Source: Nitrosotalea sp. (GTDB lineage: Archaea; Thermoproteota; Nitrososphaeria; Nitrososphaerales; Nitrosopumilaceae). From it: a stretch of DNA of 56,210 nt. Location of the stretch: contig JANWLA010000013.1 in NCBI GenBank assembly GCA_025451075.1, positions 1-56,210 on the forward strand, read 5' to 3'. The notes beneath the pieces are model-generated. The model ran no database searches, had not been told where the DNA came from, and saw nothing but the letters and a program-made list of their open reading frames with translations. Of this stretch, positions 7,931 to 23,335 are shown piece after piece (the stretch's first letter is position 1; every line of letters starts with the position of its first letter). The position numbers and the translations under genes were made by a program.

Positions 7931-9895
7931 TTGAAAAATCTATTTTATATTGCAATATTTGCGACTTTGATTCTCACATTATCTTCATTTGCTATTCCAA
8001 ATGCACATGCAGTTACTGTCTATACTTTGGATCAAGCAGGATGTCAATCTCTTCCAGGTGGATCTCCCGTATGGAATGCTGGAACAAATACATGTCAGAT
8101 AACTGGATCCATCAGTTTTTCTGACACACTAAACATCCCGTCAGGCGCAGTTCTTCAAATATCCTCTCAGAGCGGATTCTTCTTTAATCTTGGAACAATT
8201 AACAACAGTGGAACAATAACTCTCATAAACCATGGAGGGCTTGCTGTCACAAATGGAGGTGTGCTAAACAACAATGGTATTTTCAACAACAATGATGCAC
8301 CATTTCCACAAGATGGGTCCGGACTGCAAAATGGGGCAGGAACAATTAACAATAATGCAGGAGCTACCATAAATAACAATGGTCAATTTTGGAATTATTT
8401 TGCAACAGTTAACAACCGGGGAACAATAAACGCTGGAAGTGATCTTGAAAATAGAGCAGGAGGAACCATAAATAATTATTGTCCAGGAATAATAAATGGC
8501 GCAATAATTGGACCTCCAGCAGTCAACATATGCCTTGCACCAGCACCACCAGTAATTACTTCTCCTACAACTGGAACATCTACTTCTAATCCAACTGTTA
8601 CACTTTCAGGAACTGCATCACCAAATGCACCAGTCACTATCCTTGATGGAGGTTCTCAAGTTAGCATAGTAACAGCAGATAGTTCTGGTAACTGGAACAC
8701 AAATGTTGTACTTAGTGCAGGTTCTCACACAATAACAACTACACAAACAATAGGCGGATCATCATCTGCCTCATCCAATTCAGTTATAATTGATCTAGTC
8801 GTATGTCCTGTAGGCTCATTCCTACCATCAGGGTCTAATACATGCATTCCAGCTCCTCCAGGTTCATTTGTTAATACAACCGGTTCCACTTCAGCTTCAC
8901 TCTGTCCAGTTGGCACATTTACTGATCTTCTAGGTCAATCATCTTGCATTCCATCTCCAGCTGGTTCATTTGTTAATACAACCGGTTCCACTTCATCTAC
9001 CCTTTGCACACCAGGTTCATTTCAACCACTTGCTGGACAATCATCTTGTCTTCTTGCACAGCCGGGATTCTTTGTTAACTCAACTGGTGCTATGCAACAA
9101 ACACAGTGTCCTGCGGGTACCAATTCTGCTGCTGGTGCAATATCTTGTTATATTGTAGATACTACGCCACCCGCAGTATCCATAACTCAACCATCTGGTG
9201 GTTCTGTTCTAAATCATATATCATCAATTAATGGAACTGCATCAGATGACACCTCTGTCTCATCTGTCCTAGTATCAATCGATGGAGGTTTGCCAACCAC
9301 TGCAACATATTCTTCTGGTACCTGGACTCTTGCAGCAACAACATTATCAAATGGAGCTCATACTGCAAATGCAACAGCCACTGATTCAGTAGGACTAGAA
9401 GCCAAGACTGGAATAATTCATTTCACAATACTTACACCAACACAGGGAAGAATTACTGGTGGAGGAAATGTTGGACAGGACCAGAACTTTGGTTTTGAAG
9501 TCAAGTCAGATAGTGATGGTAAAAAAACAACAAGCGGGCATATTGAATATCATGACAAATCCAAAACGATTGACCTTGACAGTAAACAAATAACAATTCT
9601 TTCTGTATATGATTCTTCAACACATGCAGCATTTGTAGGACAGGGAACAATACATGATAAGGATAAAACATTGTATAACTTGCTGGTCCAAGTGTCTGAC
9701 TCAGACAAGTCCGGCGATCATGATATGTTTTCAATAACGATAACAGACAAAACTGGTACAGTTGTATACCAAAGCTCTGGAATCGTTCATGGCCATATTG
9801 AAATTCACAAGTTTTCAGACCATGATGACAAGTCTGACAGTGGAAATCAACATGGTGACAATTCCAATAACGACAACCACAATAATTCACATTAA
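7931..9895 (+). CDS. Large secreted modular surface protein
   Basis: 654-aa exported protein, function unknown. A TTG start gives a clear signal peptide (hydrophobic LFYIAIFATLILTLSSFAI, cleavage near AHA). Order of modules: an N/G-rich repetitive stretch (about 75-195) looking like a parallel beta-helix; an Ig/Big-like domain (about 205-290); three to four cysteine-rich modules of about 34-40 aa (C-P-x-G-[ST]-F) resembling GCC2/GCC3 or TNFR-type repeats (about 292-410); a second Ig-like domain; a GRITGGGNVG domain; and a His/Asp/Asn-rich tail that could bind metal. No transmembrane anchor is seen. A TATA-like CTTAAATATT lies about 25 nt upstream of the TTG. Confidence 0.7.
   Translation: MKNLFYIAIFATLILTLSSFAIPNAHAVTVYTLDQAGCQSLPGGSPVWNAGTNTCQITGSISFSDTLNIPSGAVLQISSQSGFFFNLGTINNSGTITLINHGGLAVTNGGVLNNNGIFNNNDAPFPQDGSGLQNGAGTINNNAGATINNNGQFWNYFATVNNRGTINAGSDLENRAGGTINNYCPGIINGAIIGPPAVNICLAPAPPVITSPTTGTSTSNPTVTLSGTASPNAPVTILDGGSQVSIVTADSSGNWNTNVVLSAGSHTITTTQTIGGSSSASSNSVIIDLVVCPVGSFLPSGSNTCIPAPPGSFVNTTGSTSASLCPVGTFTDLLGQSSCIPSPAGSFVNTTGSTSSTLCTPGSFQPLAGQSSCLLAQPGFFVNSTGAMQQTQCPAGTNSAAGAISCYIVDTTPPAVSITQPSGGSVLNHISSINGTASDDTSVSSVLVSIDGGLPTTATYSSGTWTLAATTLSNGAHTANATATDSVGLEAKTGIIHFTILTPTQGRITGGGNVGQDQNFGFEVKSDSDGKKTTSGHIEYHDKSKTIDLDSKQITILSVYDSSTHAAFVGQGTIHDKDKTLYNLLVQVSDSDKSGDHDMFSITITDKTGTVVYQSSGIVHGHIEIHKFSDHDDKSDSGNQHGDNSNNDNHNNSH
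8861..8995 (+). repeat. 102-bp-spaced direct repeat inside the cysteine-rich module
   Basis: The same 33 bases, starting GGTTCATTTGTTAATACAAC, occur at 8861-8893 and again at 8963-8995. The offset of 102 bp equals 34 codons, so reading frame and the cysteine module periodicity are kept. The nucleotide identity is higher than the protein repeat needs, which suggests recent duplication or gene conversion. Confidence 0.85.
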
Positions 9896-10143: not shown

Positions 10144-11160
10144 TTAGTGAATACAGATGGGATTTCCAATGCAATGCAAGTCTGCCCCGGATAAATCAGC
10201 ACCTGTAAGGTTTGCATTAGTCAAGTCTGCGCCCTTGAGATCAGCACTGCCTAAATCCGCATGATTCAAGTTTGCACCATTCAGAGTTGCATTTTCTAAT
10301 ATTGCAAATCCAAGACCGGTATTTTGCAAATTGGCGCCTGAGAGGTTTGCACCAGTAAATACTGCATTGTTGAGATCTGCACTTTTAAGATTAGTATTAG
10401 TCAAATTAACTCCTATCATGATAGCATTTGAAAGGTCCGCATCTTGAAAGTTTGCACCTGATAGGTTTGCACCAGTAAAATCCACATCCTTGATTTCTGA
10501 GAGATTAAAGTTGGCTCCAGTCAATGTAGCATTCTTGAGGGTAGCTCCAGTAAGTGCCGCATTAAAAAAATTGCCTCCCGAGAGGTTTGCACCAGTCAGG
10601 TCTGCTGCAAGCAAGTTGATGTATGTACCATTTGCATTAATCATATTGGCACCTTTTAGTATGGCTTCTGGGAAATCAGCATTTGTGATATCTGCATTTT
10701 GGAGATTTACTCCTGCAAGATTGGCACGAAACAGGTATGCCTTGTGAAGATCTGCATTACTGAAATTAGTTCCAACAAGAGTTGCACCAGTCAAGTCTGC
10801 ATCATGTAATTCCTTATTAGAAAAATCACAATTAGACCAGTCAACCTTTGGAAATGTTCTATCTTGACAGTTTGATGGCGGGCTAGGAATTGTTATCGGT
10901 TTTGCATTAGCAGTTTCTGCTTTTTCATTAGTAGCTTCCAAATCTATTATGCCAATTTTAACAAGGTATTGAATTCCTTTTACATAATCTGAATCACTGA
11001 TTAATCCACTAGTCCACCATTTTGTTCTAATCTTGACCCAAGAAGGTATCTGTTCTGGTTCATTGGAAGCGGCAAATGCCGAAAGGCTTGAAGTTGAAAA
11101 TACGCAACATACAGAAATTATTCCTATTGTAAACAAAATGGATTTTGTTTTATTTGTCAT
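10144..11160 (-). CDS. Secreted pentapeptide-repeat protein
   Basis: 338 aa with a signal peptide (hydrophobic IIPVCC-type core after MTNKTKS, cleavage near AFA). It then has a short domain with PSWVKIRTKWW and GIQYLVKIGII, a segment common in thaumarchaeal exported proteins. From about residue 105 to the end there are more than 35 pentapeptide repeats of the A-[DN]-L-x-x type, predicted to form a right-handed quadrilateral beta-helix. The role is unknown; related helices act as protein scaffolds or DNA mimics. The promoter has TATA-like CATATAAAT, and an operator copy lies 39 nt upstream of the ATG. Confidence 0.8.
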   Translation of the reverse strand: MTNKTKSILFTIGIISVCCVFSTSSLSAFAASNEPEQIPSWVKIRTKWWTSGLISDSDYVKGIQYLVKIGIIDLEATNEKAETANAKPITIPSPPSNCQDRTFPKVDWSNCDFSNKELHDADLTGATLVGTNFSNADLHKAYLFRANLAGVNLQNADITNADFPEAILKGANMINANGTYINLLAADLTGANLSGGNFFNAALTGATLKNATLTGANFNLSEIKDVDFTGANLSGANFQDADLSNAIMIGVNLTNTNLKSADLNNAVFTGANLSGANLQNTGLGFAILENATLNGANLNHADLGSADLKGADLTNANLTGADLSGADLHCIGNPICIH

Positions 11161-11503: not shown

Positions 11504-11521
11504 ATTATCAAGAGTGATTTT
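11504..11521 (-). promoter_or_regulatory. Operator copy 2, upstream of small zinc protein
   Basis: Plus-strand ATTATCA-AGAG-TGATTTT: proximal arm perfect, distal arm 5 of 7. The gap to the ATG at 11465 is 38 nt. Its last base touches the stop codon of the CBS-HPF gene. Confidence 0.65.
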
Positions 11522-12690
11522 CAGAAAATATCTTTCTTGTCTATTTTTCTAATTGAGGTTTTCCAACGTTTCTTGCTATGCTGAGACAAGTTTCTAACTA
11601 CTTTGTTTCCCAGAGTATCAAAAATCTTTGAGAGATCCCATCCGCTCTCTGCATAATTGTATGTCTTGTATGGAGTTATGATTCTGACGCCTACATCGTA
11701 ATGTGGTCTGTTACTTGTAGGATTGTGTATTGTCTTAATCGATGCCTTTGCTGATTCTACCTCTGGATATACCTTTCTGAGGTTTCGAATTATCTTATCA
11801 AATTTTGTCTTGACAATTTCTGCACTGGAATAATCTTCTGGAAGGCCAACAATATACAGTGGAACCTCACTTGGTATTTTTGATTCAAGGATGTTGACTA
11901 TGTCTTTGTATGTGACTATTCCATGTACATGATCCCACAAAGTAAGCAAACAACATGATGCGTCATTTTTCAACATTGATTCTATGACCGTACTGAGAGG
12001 CGCATGAGTGCCAAGGTTTGGAATACGGGTGCTACCGATATTTCCAATCTCTGATTGATATTTTTTCTTTGCATCCACTCCTCTTAATCCCATTCCTATT
12101 TTTTCTCCAGGCTTTACAACCTGTAATAGGTGCATCGAAGTCATGACCTGTAAAACTTTATCGCCCTTGATTACTGGAAGATGATCTATTTTTTTTGTAA
12201 TCATGATTTTTCTTGCAGTTGCAAGAGAATCACTGCTTTTTACTGTAATTGGATTTGACGTAAATATGTAGTTTACTGGTATCCATTTTAGATTCTGTTT
12301 GTGTAACAGCTCAACAATATCTTTTACATCAACTATTCCAATTATCTGATTTTCATCTACTACTGGAACAGAACGCATTCTATAATGAGACAAAATAGCA
12401 GCCGCTTTTTCTACTGTATCATTTTTGGTCAAAGACTGAATCTTTCGTAAAAGTGGCTTGACCTTCATATTTTCAACATCTTTTGCAGACAAGAGATCTC
12501 GTGCACTTATTGTGAATACATCCTTACCGTCCATGCAAAATACATCATAGGAATTTGAATTTACCAAAACTCCAACTACTTTGGATACTGTATACGAAGA
12601 ATCAATGATGGTTGCTTTCTTTAGTATCTTGCTTATCTGAAAATCTCGGACTTCTTTTAGATGTGCATAGACAATTTGTGGTGAATTCAT
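11521..12690 (-). CDS. CBS-domain protein with C-terminal HPF/S30AE-like domain
   Basis: 389 aa. Four CBS repeats occupy roughly residues 10-270 (for example SHYRMRSVPVVDENQIIGIVDVKDIV), expected to bind adenine nucleotides as two Bateman modules. Residues about 277-375 match the beta-alpha-beta-beta-beta-alpha pattern of the ribosome hibernation factor family: a long helix (KTKFDKIIRNLRKVYP), then HYDVGVRIITPYKTYNYAESGWDLSKIFDTLGNKV, which mirrors the HPF pattern of a VEVRI strand, a sheet strand and DLYxAID. This suggests a nucleotide-sensing ribosome-silencing factor. The ATG at 12690 is preferred; an in-frame TTG lies three codons upstream. The HPF assignment rests on pattern, not on a search. 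Confidence 0.75.
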   Translation of the reverse strand: MNSPQIVYAHLKEVRDFQISKILKKATIIDSSYTVSKVVGVLVNSNSYDVFCMDGKDVFTISARDLLSAKDVENMKVKPLLRKIQSLTKNDTVEKAAAILSHYRMRSVPVVDENQIIGIVDVKDIVELLHKQNLKWIPVNYIFTSNPITVKSSDSLATARKIMITKKIDHLPVIKGDKVLQVMTSMHLLQVVKPGEKIGMGLRGVDAKKKYQSEIGNIGSTRIPNLGTHAPLSTVIESMLKNDASCCLLTLWDHVHGIVTYKDIVNILESKIPSEVPLYIVGLPEDYSSAEIVKTKFDKIIRNLRKVYPEVESAKASIKTIHNPTSNRPHYDVGVRIITPYKTYNYAESGWDLSKIFDTLGNKVVRNLSQHSKKRWKTSIRKIDKKDIF

Positions 12691-12750
12691 TTTTAACAAA
12701 TCTTGATTATGTGATGTATTATAAAAGCCAACTAGTGATTTTTACCGTCA

Positions 12751-12768
12751 ATAATCATGGATGATAAT
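12751..12768 (-). promoter_or_regulatory. Operator copy 3 (shifted), upstream of CBS-HPF gene
   Basis: Plus-strand ATAATCA-TGGA-TGATAAT, arms 6 of 7 and 7 of 7. It lies 60 nt from the ATG and about 51 nt from the TSS expected from the TATA box near 12719-12728. That is about one helical turn farther upstream than the other copies. Confidence 0.6.
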
Positions 12769-16799: not shown

Positions 16800-17663
16800 A
16801 TGATGATGACAAAACGTATGTCATATACTACACCCGTAATAACACTATGTCCTGAGAATAGCATTCATGATGCACTATTTCTCATGAGGAAAAATGACAT
16901 AAAACGAATTGTCATTATTAATAATGATGTTCCAATTGGTATGGTAACTGAACACGATATAGGCAGATTTTTACAAAATGACAAGACATCAAGAATGTTA
17001 GATAAAATACATCTTAACGAAATAATGAGCAGAACTCTTTTCACAATATCACAAGATCAGGATGAGCTTCTGATACAATGTGCAATACGTATGGACGCAT
17101 TTCAGATTGGCTCAATTATTATTATGGACAATGAAAAACTGGTTGGAATTGTTACAAAATCTGATCTAACCAAGCACTTTTCTGATTCATTTGCAGGTGC
17201 TTACAGAGTCAAAGACTATATGAATACTAAAATGATAACTTGCCGCAAATCTGATTCATTGTTATTTGCTCTTGCTATGCTCAATAGAAATAAGATTGCA
17301 AGACTAGTTGTAACTGATAATGATGGAAGGCCGGTTGGTATAATCAGTTATGATACATTTTTGAGAAATAGCGAATATTTCAAACCTAGTAAACAGAACA
17401 CAAGAGACTATTTGTTGCCAAAACCCTCTGCAAAAGAATTGCTTGTAAGTGATCTGATCGGCAATGAGCTTCTTACAATAAAGTCTGAAGATGACCTTGC
17501 AAAGGCCGCAAGATTCATGGCTGAATACAAGATAAGTGGTATTCCCGTAGTTGATGAAAATGGTAATCTTGAAGGAGTGATTAGTGCAACTGACATAATT
17601 CGTGCATATCATGAAGTAAAAGTTCACGCCATGTTGAAAAAAAATGATCCTCATTTTGCATGA
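16800..17663 (+). CDS. Four-CBS-domain protein
   Basis: 287 aa consisting of two Bateman modules and little else. Repeats end in the usual IVDENxxxGIITxxD type pattern (VTEHDIGRFL, VTKSDLTKHF, ISYDTFLRN, VISATDIIRAYHEVK). Such stand-alone CBS proteins bind AMP/ATP/SAM and control partner proteins; the partner is not evident here. Three consecutive ATG codons start the gene. The TATA-like TGTTTTAAAT lies about 25 nt upstream. It has no island operator, unlike most neighbours. Confidence 0.85.
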   Translation: MMMTKRMSYTTPVITLCPENSIHDALFLMRKNDIKRIVIINNDVPIGMVTEHDIGRFLQNDKTSRMLDKIHLNEIMSRTLFTISQDQDELLIQCAIRMDAFQIGSIIIMDNEKLVGIVTKSDLTKHFSDSFAGAYRVKDYMNTKMITCRKSDSLLFALAMLNRNKIARLVVTDNDGRPVGIISYDTFLRNSEYFKPSKQNTRDYLLPKPSAKELLVSDLIGNELLTIKSEDDLAKAARFMAEYKISGIPVVDENGNLEGVISATDIIRAYHEVKVHAMLKKNDPHFA

Positions 17664-17741
17664 GGGTAAAAATTGGAAAAACTCTTGTTTTCTAGGAAAT
17701 ATTTCCTTTATGATTTTCCTTGAAATTGTTTGTATTGTATA

Positions 17742-17759
17742 ATTACCGTAGTTGATAAT
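17742..17759 (+). promoter_or_regulatory. Operator copy 7, upstream of CBS gene 17800
   Basis: ATTACCG-TAGT-TGATAAT: distal arm 4 of 7, proximal arm perfect, gap 40 nt to the ATG. TTTTTAAGTA, a TATA-like box, lies between. Confidence 0.55.
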
Positions 17760-17799
17760 CCGATTGTCGATTTTTAAGTAAGGAATACAAGTAAACTGT

Positions 17800-18231
17800 A
17801 TGACTGAATTAGTTCAGAACATAATGAAACACCAGGTAATTACTGTAGACTCTACAGTTTCAATAAAAGATGCTGCAAAGATAATGGAGGATGCAGGTAT
17901 TGGATGTGTTATTGTCATGGATCAAAATATTGCGGTTGGAATACTAACTGAACGAGATTTTGTGAGAAAAGTGGCCGCTCATGAAAAGCCACTTTCTACT
18001 CCTGTAAAGGAAGTAATGTCGTCTCCACTGATTGTAGTTAGTCCTGATGAATCTGTATGGGAGTTGGCTGAGATTATGAAATTAAGGAGAATCCACAAAG
18101 TGCCAGTTGTACGTGAAAGCAGACTAGTCGGAATTGTAACAGCCACTGACCTAACAAAATTATGCAGTGTTGGTTCTGATTCTGAAATGCGAAGGATTGC
18201 TGATCAGATTCTCTTACGAATGAAATCTTGA
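17800..18231 (+). CDS. Two-CBS-domain protein
   Basis: 143-aa single Bateman module: MKHQVITVDSTVSIKDAAKIM at the N-terminus, GILTERDFVRKV closing CBS1, and GIVTATDLTKLC closing CBS2. It is close in sequence to the CBS genes at 20413 and 18749, suggesting local duplication. It is a probable adenine-nucleotide sensor with an unknown partner. The upstream operator copy places it in the regulon. Confidence 0.87.
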   Translation: MTELVQNIMKHQVITVDSTVSIKDAAKIMEDAGIGCVIVMDQNIAVGILTERDFVRKVAAHEKPLSTPVKEVMSSPLIVVSPDESVWELAEIMKLRRIHKVPVVRESRLVGIVTATDLTKLCSVGSDSEMRRIADQILLRMKS

Positions 18232-18297
18232 TCATGTTTTTTGATTTTAACTGTGCAAATATGATCTAGTGATATTTTTTATTGTAACATTATGACT

Positions 18298-18737
18298 TTA
18301 TTTTCGTAATCTGTAGAATACGTAAATGAGAATAAATGGCATTGTTCCAAGTATGAATGACACAGGAATGTTGTCTATCAAAGATCTGGTAGCAAGTTGT
18401 AAACCTAAGAATAATGTAATCATTGTGGGAATCAAGCCAAATAGCGTAAAGCGGTGACTTCTCTCTTTGAATTTGTCAAAGTCAAGATATGGATATTCCA
18501 AGTGGTGATAAATCACTGGCATTATGAAGAGTACGGCAGATATTGTGATCGAAAATAACGATATCAAAACAATGATCTTGTCTATGAAAATAAAACTCTT
18601 TGAGGGGTTGATTGCGATGTTTAGTAAAAATCCAAATAGGAACGCAGAAAATGTTGTTAAAATTGCATTTTCTCTTAATACTGAACCATAATCTGGAGAA
18701 AGCTTATCATTAGTACTTTTTCATCATTGTCAACCAT
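18298..18737 (-). pseudogene. DUF6328-like four-helix membrane protein, frameshifted near the start
   Basis: The main frame (18298-18720) encodes a membrane protein with KLSPDYGSVLREN, then FLFGFLLNI, a second segment ending VIYHHLEYP, and two more hydrophobic helices, matching what I know of the DUF6328 family. That frame has no ATG, GTG or TTG before residue 50. The only sensible start, ATG at 18737 (11 nt after the upstream CBS stop), reads MVDNDEK and then leaves the frame at a run of five A. Adding one A restores MVDNDEK-STNDKLSPDYG. So it is a frameshift mutation, a slippage-dependent gene or a homopolymer sequencing error. The role is unknown. Confidence 0.7.
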
Positions 18738-18748
18738 GAAGTAACAAT

Positions 18749-19201
18749 CTATTGTCTATCCCAATATTCATGTTCTTCGAATATACTTCCATAGAGATCT
18801 TTGCTATATTCGTCTGAATCTGCGATTATGGCGTTGATATGCTTTAGGAAATCTGTTATTGTTATGATTCCTATTGGGTGATCTTTATCAATTACCACTA
18901 CATGCCTGATCTTGCTCTCTAACATTGTTTGTGCAACTTTGTCCACTAATGTATCTGCAGAAACAGTAGTGAAAGGAGACGACATTACTTGTGTGGGACT
19001 AAGATCTGATGTCTTTTTATTTTGGGCAATGATTTTGGATAGGTAGTCTCTTTCTGTGATTATGCCGCATGGTTTTTCATTTTCAGTCAACACAATGCAG
19101 CTGATGTTGTTTTTGTTCATTATTTTTGCAATTTCAGTTATAGACGAGGTTGTTTCAATTGTGATTATTTTTTTGGACATGATGTCTCGTGCTGTTGTCA
19201 T
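18749..19201 (-). CDS. Two-CBS-domain protein
   Basis: 150-aa Bateman module: MSKKIITIETTSSITEIAKIM, GIITERDYLSKI, then HVVVIDKDHPIGIITITDFLKHI. A short acidic C-terminal tail (IFEEHEYWDRQ) is not part of the CBS fold. It is transcribed divergently from the UspA gene at 19322; between them lie two operator copies, one at the regulon distance from each start. It is followed 11 nt later by the broken DUF6328 gene, so the two form an operon. Confidence 0.86.
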   Translation of the reverse strand: MTTARDIMSKKIITIETTSSITEIAKIMNKNNISCIVLTENEKPCGIITERDYLSKIIAQNKKTSDLSPTQVMSSPFTTVSADTLVDKVAQTMLESKIRHVVVIDKDHPIGIITITDFLKHINAIIADSDEYSKDLYGSIFEEHEYWDRQ

Positions 19202-19240
19202 GTAGCAAATTATCTAATTTAATATAAAATCACTGGCGAA

Positions 19241-19258
19241 ATTATCATCAATGATAAC
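19241..19258 (-). promoter_or_regulatory. Operator copy 8, upstream of CBS gene 19201
   Basis: Plus-strand ATTATCA-TCAA-TGATAAC, arms 7 of 7 and 6 of 7, gap 39 nt to the minus-strand ATG at 19201. Confidence 0.75.
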
Positions 19259-19263
19259 ATGTT

Positions 19264-19281
19264 AAGACCATGTTTGATAAT
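19264..19281 (+). promoter_or_regulatory. Operator copy 9 (half-perfect), upstream of UspA gene 19322
   Basis: AAGACCA-TGTT-TGATAAT, arms 4 of 7 and 7 of 7, gap 40 nt to the ATG at 19322. It sits 5 nt from copy 8, so the divergent promoters carry one copy each. Confidence 0.55.
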
Positions 19282-19321
19282 CAAAGTATTATTAATATCG
19301 CAGAAGACTTCACGTGATTGT

Positions 19322-19771
19322 ATGATGACAATAAAGAATATCTTGGTTCCATACGAGGGTTCATCTTTGTCAAAGAAAGCTCTTGATTTGGCAAAGGACA
19401 TTGCTCGAAACTTTACGGCAGATTTAACAATATTTATGGTAATTCCGGTTTATTATCCCATGAACGACTCTATATTTGTTGGTGCTGCAGTAACAAACTA
19501 TGAGGATATTGTAAAAACGCTCAAACTACAGGGCGAAAAAGAATTGGGAAAAATTGTGAAAAAATGTAGAGAAGGAGGTACTAAAACATCCTACAAAATT
19601 GTACATGATGATATTTCAAATGCAATATTGAGGCAAGCAAAAAAATCTAAAGCTGACATGATAATAATGGGAAGTAGAAGACTCACAGGTGTATCGTCGC
19701 TCAAACGACTTGGAAGCACAGCACGACATGTATCAGAGCATGCCGAATGTCCAGTTACAATAGTACACTGA
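19322..19771 (+). CDS. Universal stress protein (UspA family)
   Basis: 149-aa UspA fold. ILVPYEGSSLSKKALDLA is the N-terminal nucleotide-binding strand-loop, and MGSRRLTGVSSLKRLGSTARHV is the G-x2-G-x9-G-[ST]-like ATP loop, slightly diverged (the second Gly is Arg). I chose the ATG at 19322 because it lies at the regulon distance from the operator; the frame stays open upstream to 19259, but that extension is not Usp-like. Probably an ATP-binding stress protein. Confidence 0.88.
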   Translation: MMTIKNILVPYEGSSLSKKALDLAKDIARNFTADLTIFMVIPVYYPMNDSIFVGAAVTNYEDIVKTLKLQGEKELGKIVKKCREGGTKTSYKIVHDDISNAILRQAKKSKADMIIMGSRRLTGVSSLKRLGSTARHVSEHAECPVTIVH

Positions 19772-19793
19772 CCCAAACCTCACATGCGTGCTT

Positions 19794-19811
19794 AAAATCA
19801 ATCTTGATAAT
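19794..19811 (+). promoter_or_regulatory. Operator copy 10, upstream of UspA gene 19853
   Basis: AAAATCA-ATCT-TGATAAT, arms 5 of 7 and 7 of 7, gap 41 nt to the ATG at 19853. Confidence 0.6.
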
Positions 19812-19852
19812 GTAGTATTTGTTAATATGTCAGGATCTGGTAACGGATTTGT

Positions 19853-20278
19853 ATGAAACAGGAAATTAGTAAAATTCTAGTTGCATTGGATGGTTCTGAA
19901 AGATCAGTTAGAGGATTAAAAAAAGCAATTTATCTTGCACGTCAATGTGGTGCAACAATAACTGGATTGTGCGTTACTCCTTTTTATGTGATAAACCTAG
20001 GGCCACTACTAACCTCTCTGAACAATCAAACCTTGAAAGAGGCAAAGAAATTCATGGCTGATGCCAAGAAACTTTGTGCTCAACACGGAATAGTATTTCA
20101 TGAAAAAATAATCTTTGGAAATGAATCTTGGCAGATTACTGAATATGCATCTTATAGGAAATTTGATCTGATAATAATTACATCTCGTGGACGAGGTCCT
20201 ATGAAGAGTACTTTTCTTGGAAGTGTGGCAAACGATGTTGTTCACAAATCCAAAATACCTGTATTAGTAGTCAAATAA
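19853..20278 (+). CDS. Universal stress protein (UspA family)
   Basis: 141 aa. ILVALDGSERSVRGLKKAIYLA, the GATITGLCVTP strand and a full ATP-binding loop TSRGRGPMKSTFLGSVAND identify an ATP-binding Usp. It is more similar to the Usp at 20899 than to the one at 19322 (shared DGS-xRGL and GxITGL segments), suggesting duplication within the island. Confidence 0.9.
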   Translation: MKQEISKILVALDGSERSVRGLKKAIYLARQCGATITGLCVTPFYVINLGPLLTSLNNQTLKEAKKFMADAKKLCAQHGIVFHEKIIFGNESWQITEYASYRKFDLIIITSRGRGPMKSTFLGSVANDVVHKSKIPVLVVK

Positions 20279-20354
20279 TTTAACAATAGAAAATTATTCA
20301 GTCAAATTTTTTTAATATTATAATAATTTGGTTGAATAAACAACATGGTAATTG

Positions 20355-20372
20355 ATTATCACAAATGATAAT
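20355..20372 (+). promoter_or_regulatory. Operator copy 11, perfect palindrome, upstream of CBS gene 20413
   Basis: ATTATCA-CAAA-TGATAAT, both arms perfect; flanking G and C extend the arms to 8 bp. The gap to the ATG is 40 nt, with TATA-like GTATTTTTAT between. Confidence 0.82.
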
Positions 20373-20412
20373 CTAATTCCGTATTTTTATTGCGTACTAA
20401 CAGATACACGGT

Positions 20413-20841
20413 ATGGATGCTTTTGTAAAGGATATGATGAGAAAACAAATTGTTTCAATTGATGTTTCATTAACAATCAAGGAAGCTGCAAAGATCATGG
20501 ACGATACAGGAGTTAGTTGCTTGGTTGTTACTGAAACAAACATACCTATTGGCATCTTGACAGAAAGAGATTTTGTAACAAGAGTTACATCTCTTGACAA
20601 GACATCATCCACGCCAGTACTAAATGTTATGTCATTGCCTTTGATAACTGTAAGTCCAAATGATACTGCAAAAAAACTAGCCGAACTGATGAAAGAGAAA
20701 AACATCCACAAGGTGCCTGTAATGGAAGGAACTCAACTAGTGGGAATTGTTACTGCAACTGATTTGATAAGAAAATATGTTATTGACTCAGGTTCAGACA
20801 TGATACAAATTTGCAATTCTTTTGCACAAATGGCATTTTGA
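20413..20841 (+). CDS. Two-CBS-domain protein
   Basis: 142-aa Bateman module, close paralogue of the gene at 17800 (shared AAKIMDDTGVSCLVV, GILTERDFVTRV, NIHKVPVMEGTQLVGIVTATDL). No extra domain. It has the best-formed operator copy in the region, so it is likely a strongly controlled member of the regulon. The partner protein is unknown. Confidence 0.87.
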   Translation: MDAFVKDMMRKQIVSIDVSLTIKEAAKIMDDTGVSCLVVTETNIPIGILTERDFVTRVTSLDKTSSTPVLNVMSLPLITVSPNDTAKKLAELMKEKNIHKVPVMEGTQLVGIVTATDLIRKYVIDSGSDMIQICNSFAQMAF

Positions 20842-20898
20842 AATAACTCTGCTAGGCAGACTGCTTTTTATTATCGTTCCAGTTGGAATTCTTATTAT

Positions 20899-21333
20899 TT
20901 ATTTTACGACGAGTACTGGAATCTTAGAGTTGTGTAGTACTCCATTTGTAACACTGCCTAAATATATTGCATCAGGGGCGCTTTTGCCCCTTGAACCCAT
21001 GATCAATATGTCAAACCCCTTTGATTTTGCATAACCTGTGATTGTTTTGGCAATGCCAGGGGATGTAATGATTTTTCCATTAAACTCAATTCCATTCCTG
21101 CTAGCGTATGTTTTTGCCTGAGAGATAATTTTTTCTGAATTCTTCAGCATCTCTTTTCTATATTTTTTTAAAATCTGGGGTGCATTTGCAAAGCTAGCAC
21201 TTGATATGACATTTAGTCCTGTTATATTTCCGCCAGTCTTGATTGCAAGCGCAATTGCTTCATTCAAACCTCTTATGGAATTTGAAGAACCATCCAAAGG
21301 AACAATGATTTTTTTGAATTGATTTTGTGACAT
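20899..21333 (-). CDS. Universal stress protein (UspA family)
   Basis: 144 aa with KIIVPLDGSSNSIRGLNEAIALA, GGNITGLNVIS and a canonical ATP loop MGSRGKSAPDAIYLGSVTNGV. It is convergent with the CBS gene at 20413. Unlike the other two Usp genes it lacks an island operator; a different palindrome (21383-21399) lies upstream of its TATA box, suggesting separate control. Confidence 0.9.
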   Translation of the reverse strand: MSQNQFKKIIVPLDGSSNSIRGLNEAIALAIKTGGNITGLNVISSASFANAPQILKKYRKEMLKNSEKIISQAKTYASRNGIEFNGKIITSPGIAKTITGYAKSKGFDILIMGSRGKSAPDAIYLGSVTNGVLHNSKIPVLVVK

Positions 21334-21382
21334 ACTTGTAAATTTGTAATGTTTGCTCTATAAAGAATTACGACACATTGTT

Positions 21383-21399
21383 CATTAACATTGTTAATG
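21383..21399 (-). promoter_or_regulatory. Palindrome CATTAAC-ATT-GTTAATG upstream of UspA 21333
   Basis: Perfect 7-bp arms around 3 nt, 49 nt upstream of the ATG and upstream of TATA-like CTTTATAG on the minus strand. It is a candidate operator distinct from the island motif, possibly for a different regulator. Confidence 0.5.
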
Positions 21400-21511
21400 T
21401 TATTTTATGATGATTCTTCTTATTTGTACAAATAACAAGGATGTCACGCATGTGTCTACAATGCTTATGCATATTTGTGATACTTAACACGGTAGTAGAT
21501 TATCTCATGTG

Positions 21512-21529
21512 ATATTCAAAAGTGATATT
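21512..21529 (+). promoter_or_regulatory. Operator copy 12, upstream of ABC ATPase
   Basis: ATATTCA-AAAG-TGATATT, arms 5 of 7 and 6 of 7, gap 40 nt to the ATG at 21570. A second overlapping copy, ATTATCT-CATG-TGATATT at 21499-21516, lies directly upstream, so this promoter may bind two dimers. Confidence 0.55.
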
Positions 21530-21569
21530 GTGCTGGGATCTAAAATACAATCAGTATGAATGATCTGTA

Positions 21570-22343
21570 ATGTTGAATCTGTTAAAACACTTGTCTGACA
21601 ATTCACATGTTAATGGTATTGATGTGAGTCTATACACAAAACCTTCACAAATTACTGATGGTATAGCGTTAAAAACTGAACATGTCACAAAAATATTTGA
21701 TTCGGTTGCAGGCAGAATAGAGGCATTAAGGGACATAAACCTCACAGTGAGGAAAGGTGAGTTTGTATCCATAATGGGCCCCTCGGGAAGTGGAAAATCT
21801 GTACTTCTCAACATTTTAGGTGCACTGGACAGACCAACATCCGGAAAAGTCTTCATAAATGGACTTGACATATTTGCCCTTGGAAATGCTCAAATTGCAA
21901 CCATGAGAAATCTACTCATAGGCTACATATTTCAATCATATAATCTAGTCAACAGAACAACGGTTCAGACAAATGTCAAACTCCCTGCAATCATAGCGGG
22001 TATGTCTCCATCCGAGGCAAACTTCCGCTCGATGAAAATTTTAAAATACTTGGGAATAGCTGACAAAGCAAAACAAAAGCCTGCTAACTTGAGTGGTGGG
22101 CAACAACAAAGGGTTGCAATTGCAAGATGCCTGATAAATAATCCCGCAATAATTCTGGCAGATGAACCAACAGGGAATCTAGATACAAAAACAGGTCAAG
22201 ACATATTTTCCATGTTAAATGAATTGTCACGCAAATTCAAACGTACGATACTAATGGTTACTCACAATCTGGATCTTGCAGATCTAACGGACAGGACAAT
22301 CTTCATCAAAGATGGTAGAATAGACAAGGAGATCATAAATTAG
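21570..22343 (+). CDS. ABC transporter ATP-binding protein (MacB/LolD type)
   Basis: 257 aa. Walker [10 protein letters not shown]-loop [12 protein letters not shown], signature [15 protein letters not shown], Walker [12 protein letters not shown] and H-loop VTHN are all intact, so the ATPase should be active. The N-terminus has about 35 extra residues before the ATPase fold. The subfamily normally pairs with a FtsX-like permease, but none is adjacent: PPK2 follows and a Usp precedes. It either works with a permease encoded elsewhere or is an orphan. Operator copy 12 lies upstream. Confidence 0.88.
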
Positions 22344-22462
22344 GTTACAGAATTCTTGGCAATGACAAATAATATCATTTTTTGACTAGGTGAAAATTGT
22401 AAAAAATAGTTTTGTGAATAAGATATGTATAATTATCTAAGCAAGAATAAATTCGCAGATAG

Positions 22463-23335
22463 ATGAAAATCAATTCTATAGACTATCTTGTACGACCCGG
22501 AAAAAAAGTCAAACTGGATAAATGGCCCACAGCTATAAAGCCTGTTTACAAATCAAAAGATGAATACAAGAAGTTACTCGGTGAACACATTGATGAATTA
22601 AGATCATTACAAAATCTTCTCTATGCATACAACAAGTATTCCGTATTATTGATTTTCCAGTCAATGGATGCTGCAGGAAAAGATGGCTCAATCAAGCATG
22701 TAATGTCTGGCATCAACCCGCAAGGCTGCCAAGTCTTCAGTTTCAAGCATCCTAGTACAGAAGAACTTGAGCATGATTTTCTATGGCGTGAGATTAGGTG
22801 CCTGCCTGAACGAGGAAAAATCGGTATTTTCAATCGCTCTCATTATGAGGAAGTACTGATAGCCCGTGTACATCCTGAGATCCTAGATAGCGAAGGACTT
22901 TGGGATGAATCTAACAAAAAGATGGTTTGGCAAGATAGGTATCGCTCAATTATAGATCTAGAAAGTCATTTACATCGCAATGGAACTAGGATAATCAAGT
23001 TTTTCCTTCATATTTCAAAAGAGGAGCAGCGAAAACGTTTTCTAAAACGTATTGACGACCAAAAAAAGAGCTGGAAATTTAGTACTGCAGATGTTGAGGA
23101 AAGAAAATACTGGAAGCAATACATGAAAGCGTATGAAGATTGCCTAGAAGCAACAAGCCTTGCAGATTCACCATGGTATGTAATTCCTGCAGATGATAAG
23201 GAAAACGCACATTTGATTATCTCTCAAATCATTCTTGATATGCTAAACAAACTCAAAATGATGTACCCAAAACCTGATGCAAAACGCAAACAAGAGTTGA
23301 AAAAAATTCGTAAACTTCTAAGTGATGAAGCCTGA
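22463..23335 (+). CDS. ppk2: Polyphosphate kinase 2 family protein
   Basis: 290-aa PPK2, which transfers phosphate between polyphosphate and nucleotides (ADP/AMP/GDP). Walker A-like [18 protein letters not shown], the lid region [21 protein letters not shown] and [21 protein letters not shown] are family motifs; the length fits single-domain PPK2. Direction (NTP synthesis or polyP synthesis) and class cannot be fixed here. TATA-like TATGTATAATTA lies about 27 nt upstream. Only a half operator (ATTATCT) is seen. In context it may link energy charge to the CBS/Usp sensors. Confidence 0.9.

Follow-up and report, generated by a model that had tools for sequence, protein, structure and literature searches.

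A Nitrosotalea gene very probably encoding the ribosome hibernation factor HibA, and its genomic setting in ammonia-oxidising archaea

The window (the whole 56,210-nucleotide stretch of DNA that was analysed) comes from a 1.66-Mb Nitrosotalea assembly which is 85% complete and has N. devanaterra among its nearest named relatives (89% identity). Its minus strand carries hibA, a gene whose start codon position is common to the Nitrosotalea homologues compared. The features discussed below are as follows.

11521..12690, minus strand: hibA coding sequence, ATG at 12690, stop at 11523-11521, 389 aa
11893..12690, minus strand: N-terminal module of four CBS domains, residues 1-266 (Pfam CBS; co-linear with P. 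abyssi HibA, 9sr9_H)
12130..12141, minus strand: CBS3 signature TSMH (residues 184-187), canonical ribose-binding Asp absent (alignment A2)
12046..12111, minus strand: loop between CBS3 and CBS4, residues 194-215 (aligned with the P. abyssi 'PTC loop')
11902..11913, minus strand: CBS4 signature TYKD (residues 260-263) with canonical Asp263 (invariant in the 20-homologue family alignment)
11539..11874, minus strand: HPF/RaiA (S30AE-like) domain, residues 273-384 (profiles, Pfam S30AE in the family, hhalign, AlphaFold with Foldseek)
12736..12757, minus strand: weak candidate promoter element TGATTATTGACGGTAAAAATCA (likeness to TGAAWATCA-N4-TGAAAATC seen by eye)
16800..17663, plus strand: stand-alone four-CBS protein, 287 aa (conserved near hibA in Nitrosotalea)
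19259..23335, mixed strands: Usp genes (19259, 19853, 20899), two-CBS protein (20413), ABC ATPase (21570), and PPK2 (22463-23335)

A P-type ATPase gene flanks hibA upstream, and a 69-aa open reading frame and a pentapeptide-repeat protein gene flank it downstream. The pentapeptide-repeat protein (338 aa, window 10144-11160) has a signal-like N-terminus; a 654-aa protein with Big_7/Big_13 and Ephrin_rec_like repeats (window 7931-9895) is probably a surface protein. Pairwise dN/dS between hibA homologues is about 0.1, so the gene is under strong purifying selection.

The CBS domains lie approximately at residues 18-70, 78-132, 139-192, and 216-270. Pfam CBS matches the protein with an E-value of 1.3e-22 and scores three of the stretches individually, while the fourth domain (CBS1) is backed by a profile alignment that runs co-linearly with P. 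abyssi HibA, itself a four-CBS protein; together these bear out the four domains proposed in the first-pass annotation. The canonical Asp missing from the CBS3 signature is replaced by His187, which is invariant across the 20 aligned homologues, and P. abyssi HibA reads T-L-H-D at this place, with the Asp where the window family has the His. Window residues 194-215 align with P. abyssi residues 190-207, and the 'PTC loop' trait of HibA is present by this alignment.

The C-terminus is less conspicuous. For the single window protein, Pfam found CBS domains and no match in the C-terminus, NCBIfam returned only CBS-type matches, and the Ribosomal_S30AE model (PF02482) had no match in the protein or anywhere in its own genome. 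Among 35 family members, Pfam S30AE matches 20 when E-values up to 10 are allowed (best 1.9e-7). A profile of these 35 C-termini (A3) was searched against the PDB, and the top five matches are all named ribosome hibernation promoting factors (E 5e-4 to 8e-3, four of them below 0.003), the best, at E 5e-4 to 2e-3, being bacterial HPFs; P. abyssi HibA (9sr9_H) is not listed among the matches of this C-terminal profile alone. Aligned with hhalign to an alignment of seven bacterial HPFs, the family C-terminus scored a probability of 89% and an E-value of 2.1e-6 over 71 columns.

The AlphaFold model of residues 273-389 is of moderate confidence (pLDDT 64, core 68-82; pTM 0.52). In Foldseek, HPF/RaiA/pY structures take all of its first 17 PDB matches, each with a probability of 1.00; the E-values start at 7.1e-5, and TM by target reaches 0.71. 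A full-length model (11 close homologues) reached a pLDDT of 46 and was left out of the fold search. Foldseek also returned dsRBD-containing structures, at rank 18 and again from rank 36 onward, with E-values of 3e-3 to 9e-2, as would suit an adenylate-responsive regulator of some other RNA, with a dsRBD-like RNA-binding C-terminus. However, the HPF/RaiA/pY matches have better E-values and the sequence profiles retrieve HPF and no dsRBD, making such a protein scarcely credible. The first-pass annotation had assigned an HPF/S30AE-like fold to this region and had asked whether the prediction might turn out unrelated to S30AE; since both the C-terminal profile and the AlphaFold model match HPFs, the structural claim is favoured, and the HPF-like fold is real. 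In the sequence alignments, the beta1-alpha1 and beta2-beta3 connections appear slightly longer than in bacterial HPF. Two archaeal-specific insertions in the HPF domain, contacting uS19 and uS12, are a published trait of HibA (PMC13324472).

HibA is an archaeal ribosome-hibernation family described in Nat Commun on 27 April 2026, with exactly the architecture of the window protein: four CBS domains and a C-terminal HPF domain (PMC13324472). The C-terminal domain of HibA sits in the mRNA/tRNA channel of the 30S subunit and the CBS module in the tRNA sites of the 50S subunit; HibA inhibits translation, and a deletion strain has fewer 70S ribosomes and recovers more slowly (PMC13324472). The full-length profile of the window family (A2, built from 20 full-length homologues) has P. 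abyssi HibA (9sr9_H, 392 aa) as its best solved relative, with an E-value of 4.6e-19. Columns 22-372 align to residues 11-373 of that chain, spanning both halves, at an overall identity between the window protein and P. abyssi HibA of only 17%. The chain belongs to entries 9sr9-9srf and 9t7h, among them the P. abyssi HibA-ribosome structure 9SRE.

CBS proteins of another kind have to be considered here. HhpR-type CBS modules that stand alone are transcription regulators (PMC13324472), and the NCBIfam HhpR model (NF053603) matches the window protein weakly, at 31.4 bits; the protein might then be an HhpR-like (CM-3) transcription regulator whose C-terminus binds nucleic acid, and no ribosome factor. 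But the cut-off of that model is 520 bits, several unrelated CBS models score higher, both profile and fold mark the C-terminus as specifically HPF-like, and the alignment with HibA covers the whole protein. A regulator of this kind is highly improbable.

Four CBS domains joined to an HPF/S30AE domain therefore point to a ribosome hibernation factor, and the window gene is very probably the HibA of Nitrosotalea. This assignment is based on the domain architecture, the fact that each half is homologous to P. abyssi HibA, the C-terminal HPF fold, and purifying selection. The position of the CBS3-CBS4 loop and the stress context of hibA in relatives speak for it too. The hibernation role given to the protein in the first-pass annotation agrees with its placement in the HibA family (PMC13324472), with function taken by analogy: ribosome binding, translation inhibition, and 70S preservation would be expected from the work on P. 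abyssi and T. barophilus. The four-CBS module of the window protein would dock in vacant 50S tRNA sites, its long CBS3-CBS4 loop would extend toward the peptidyl-transferase centre, and the two halves together would keep the 70S ribosome inactive and protected until growth restarts. The annotation had also called the thaumarchaeal version unstudied. This holds for the window protein itself, which is new and had no study of its own; its family and architecture, however, are already published (PMC13324472). What is added here, and was unreported before, is the genomic setting of HibA specific to ammonia-oxidising archaea and its distribution.

The annotation further described the factor as nucleotide-gated. 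The P. abyssi CBS module binds one nucleotide, at CBS3/CBS4, with affinities of 12 uM for AMP, 65 uM for ADP, and 113 uM for ATP (PMC13324472). Together with the invariant Asp263 of CBS4, this would fit a protein that is HibA by descent but uses its CBS module as a genuine energy-charge switch, with ribosome binding or release gated by adenylates. On the other hand, AMP and ATP did not clearly alter the ribosome-bound states of P. abyssi HibA (PMC13324472), and CBS3 of the window family lacks its ribose-binding Asp. Such a switch is rather unlikely, and nucleotide gating, though possible, is not borne out as originally worded. Because CBS3 lacks the Asp found in P. abyssi, nucleotide binding by the window HibA may differ from that of its relative. 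At most one canonical adenylate site (CBS4 Asp263) is conserved in the family, and AMP may therefore tune the protein or its partners; adenylate control of the window HibA is speculative.

The genes for Usp, two-CBS, four-CBS, and PPK2 proteins lie 4-11 kb from hibA. The four-CBS protein at 16800..17663 has the ribosome-bound CBS protein 9zni_6 as its best PDB relative. Besides one four-CBS protein, the island at window 16800-21333 encodes three two-CBS and three Usp proteins. Other Nitrosotalea have parts of it close to hibA as well; in locus L043, for instance, hibA stands head-to-head with PPK2 and tail-to-tail with the four-CBS gene. The stress regulon with PPK2 and Usp proposed in the first-pass annotation is accordingly better described as a partly conserved stress neighbourhood: the genes are 6.5-11 kb away, other genes intervene, and the strand opposite to hibA carries PPK2 and two of the Usp genes, the third Usp gene being the exception.

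A second HibA copy is found elsewhere in the host genome (G000:C25:5780-6946; L047:5747-6949), head-to-head with a Dps/ferritin-like gene (dps). The copies share 87% protein and 85% DNA identity with a dN/dS of about 0.1. Homology stops at the gene ends, the flanks differ, and the second copy branches outside the window/N. devanaterra group (support only 66). For these reasons a strain contaminant is unlikely, and a paralogue or transferred copy is more likely than an assembly duplicate.

The distribution of HibA was surveyed in 200 genomes of Nitrosopumilaceae, the family of the window (24 genomes without a match are not listed by genus). Full-length or near full-length HibA is present in 78, including the window's own genome, and 27 more have only a stand-alone HPF-like domain; more than half of the 200 contain one or the other. 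HibA is found in genera g4, g14, g17, and g22 and in most of g18. Three g17 genomes (G116, G121, G106) have HibA frames with one internal stop codon, reflecting either real decay or assembly error. In genus g11, which we take to be Nitrosopumilus-like, 25 of 40 genomes have the stand-alone domain only, 3 have both, and 2 have the full-length protein only. One stand-alone HPF-like gene (G046:C1:614685-615023) lies near a two-CBS gene. Genus g19 (0.7-1.2 Mb genomes) possesses neither form, with one exception. Within Nitrosotalea, no hibA match was found in 17 of 37 sampled genomes (6 of the 19 that are at least 90% complete), which argues that the gene is dispensable for some species of the genus. 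A search of viral contigs with the HibA family profile gave no match. Although ammonia-oxidising archaea are abundant, grow slowly, and often starve, Nitrosopumilaceae were listed as a lineage without identifiable hibernation factors (PMC13324472). The present counts refine that statement, although the two studies may differ in taxon sampling and in family boundaries.

Outside Nitrosotalea the setting of hibA is more uniform. In 14 of 15 genes examined there, full-length HibA is head-to-head with a stand-alone four-CBS protein of ~290 aa; where the distance was measured, some 120-180 bases separate the two start codons. Of 21 informative loci with a stand-alone HPF gene, 16 have this same partner (46-53% identity to the reference) facing that gene, and the simplest reading is that the stand-alone HPF arose by in-place loss of HibA's own CBS module while the partner was retained. 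The best PDB relative of the partner is 9zni_6 (E 5e-21). Entry 9zni also contains ribosomal protein uS12, which supports ribosome binding of this relative.

The divergent HibA/HPF-CBS pairs carry the repeat TGAAWATCA-N4-TGAAAATC in their promoter (L030-L035, L059-L067, L091-L107). Across 27 loci the shared promoters contain GATWTTCA 34 times, where a first-order shuffle predicts 1.4. The longer repeat GAAWATCA-N4-TGAAAAT is found just once or twice per genome in the eight non-Nitrosotalea genomes with HibA that were tested, and in all eight one site is at the hibA promoter; reversed-pattern controls gave zero. Further sites adjoin Hsp20 (L060) or Usp-PAC2 and a two-CBS gene (L114), and in genus g14 a second copy lies between P-II and cupredoxin genes (L113, L115). 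In Nitrosotalea this element was weak and inconsistent. TGATTATTGACGGTAAAAATCA is the sole exact match to its pattern in its own genome, though the pattern was derived from that very site, and a PWM scan of the window hibA promoter was not significant (p 0.1), with its best site elsewhere than 12736..12757.

PAC2 follows HibA in about 11 of 15 loci, followed in turn by Hsp20 where the flank allows (L060:1087-3378, L063, L065, L066, and others); in the clearest cases start and stop overlap or are 2 bases apart. This HibA-PAC2-Hsp20 row fits the published finding that the heat-shock repressor Phr controls thermococcal hibA (PMC13324472). PAC2 and Hsp20 are absent within the window, and the clearer stress association is this operon of related genera, not the window.

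Tentatively, hibernation in ammonia-oxidising archaea may be a paired system of an HPF-domain protein and a separate four-CBS protein transcribed divergently from it, the two co-regulated with the proteostasis genes PAC2 and Hsp20 through a dedicated promoter element. The HPF-domain protein would be HibA or, after in-place CBS loss, stand-alone HPF. The partner, related to ribosome-bound CBS proteins, would act in trans on the large subunit and possibly sense adenylates. With a HPF/HibA-CBS gene pair that is conserved and has a promoter element of its own, specific partners and a regulator become open to testing.

Compared with known systems, the window protein shares with HibA of P. abyssi and T. 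barophilus the co-linear order of four CBS domains and a C-terminal HPF/RaiA domain, and with P. abyssi HibA a similar length (389 versus 392 aa), the long CBS3-CBS4 loop, and the canonical Asp in CBS4. It differs from P. abyssi HibA in its sequence (17% identical), the missing CBS3 ribose-Asp, the genome context, and the presence of two copies in the genome. With bacterial HPF/RaiA (YfiA) it shares profile and fold similarity of the C-terminus, but the bacterial proteins compared have no CBS module, and the Pfam S30AE model does not detect the window sequence itself. CBS modules on archaeal ribosomes are common to HibA, Dri of Pyrobaculum calidifontis (9e6q), and the stand-alone ribosome-bound CBS proteins (9znf, 9zng, 9zni), although Dri and the latter lack the HPF domain of the window HibA. 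The same stand-alone four-CBS kind as in 9znf, 9zng, and 9zni is seen in the neighbour at 16800-17663 and in the divergent partner of other genera.
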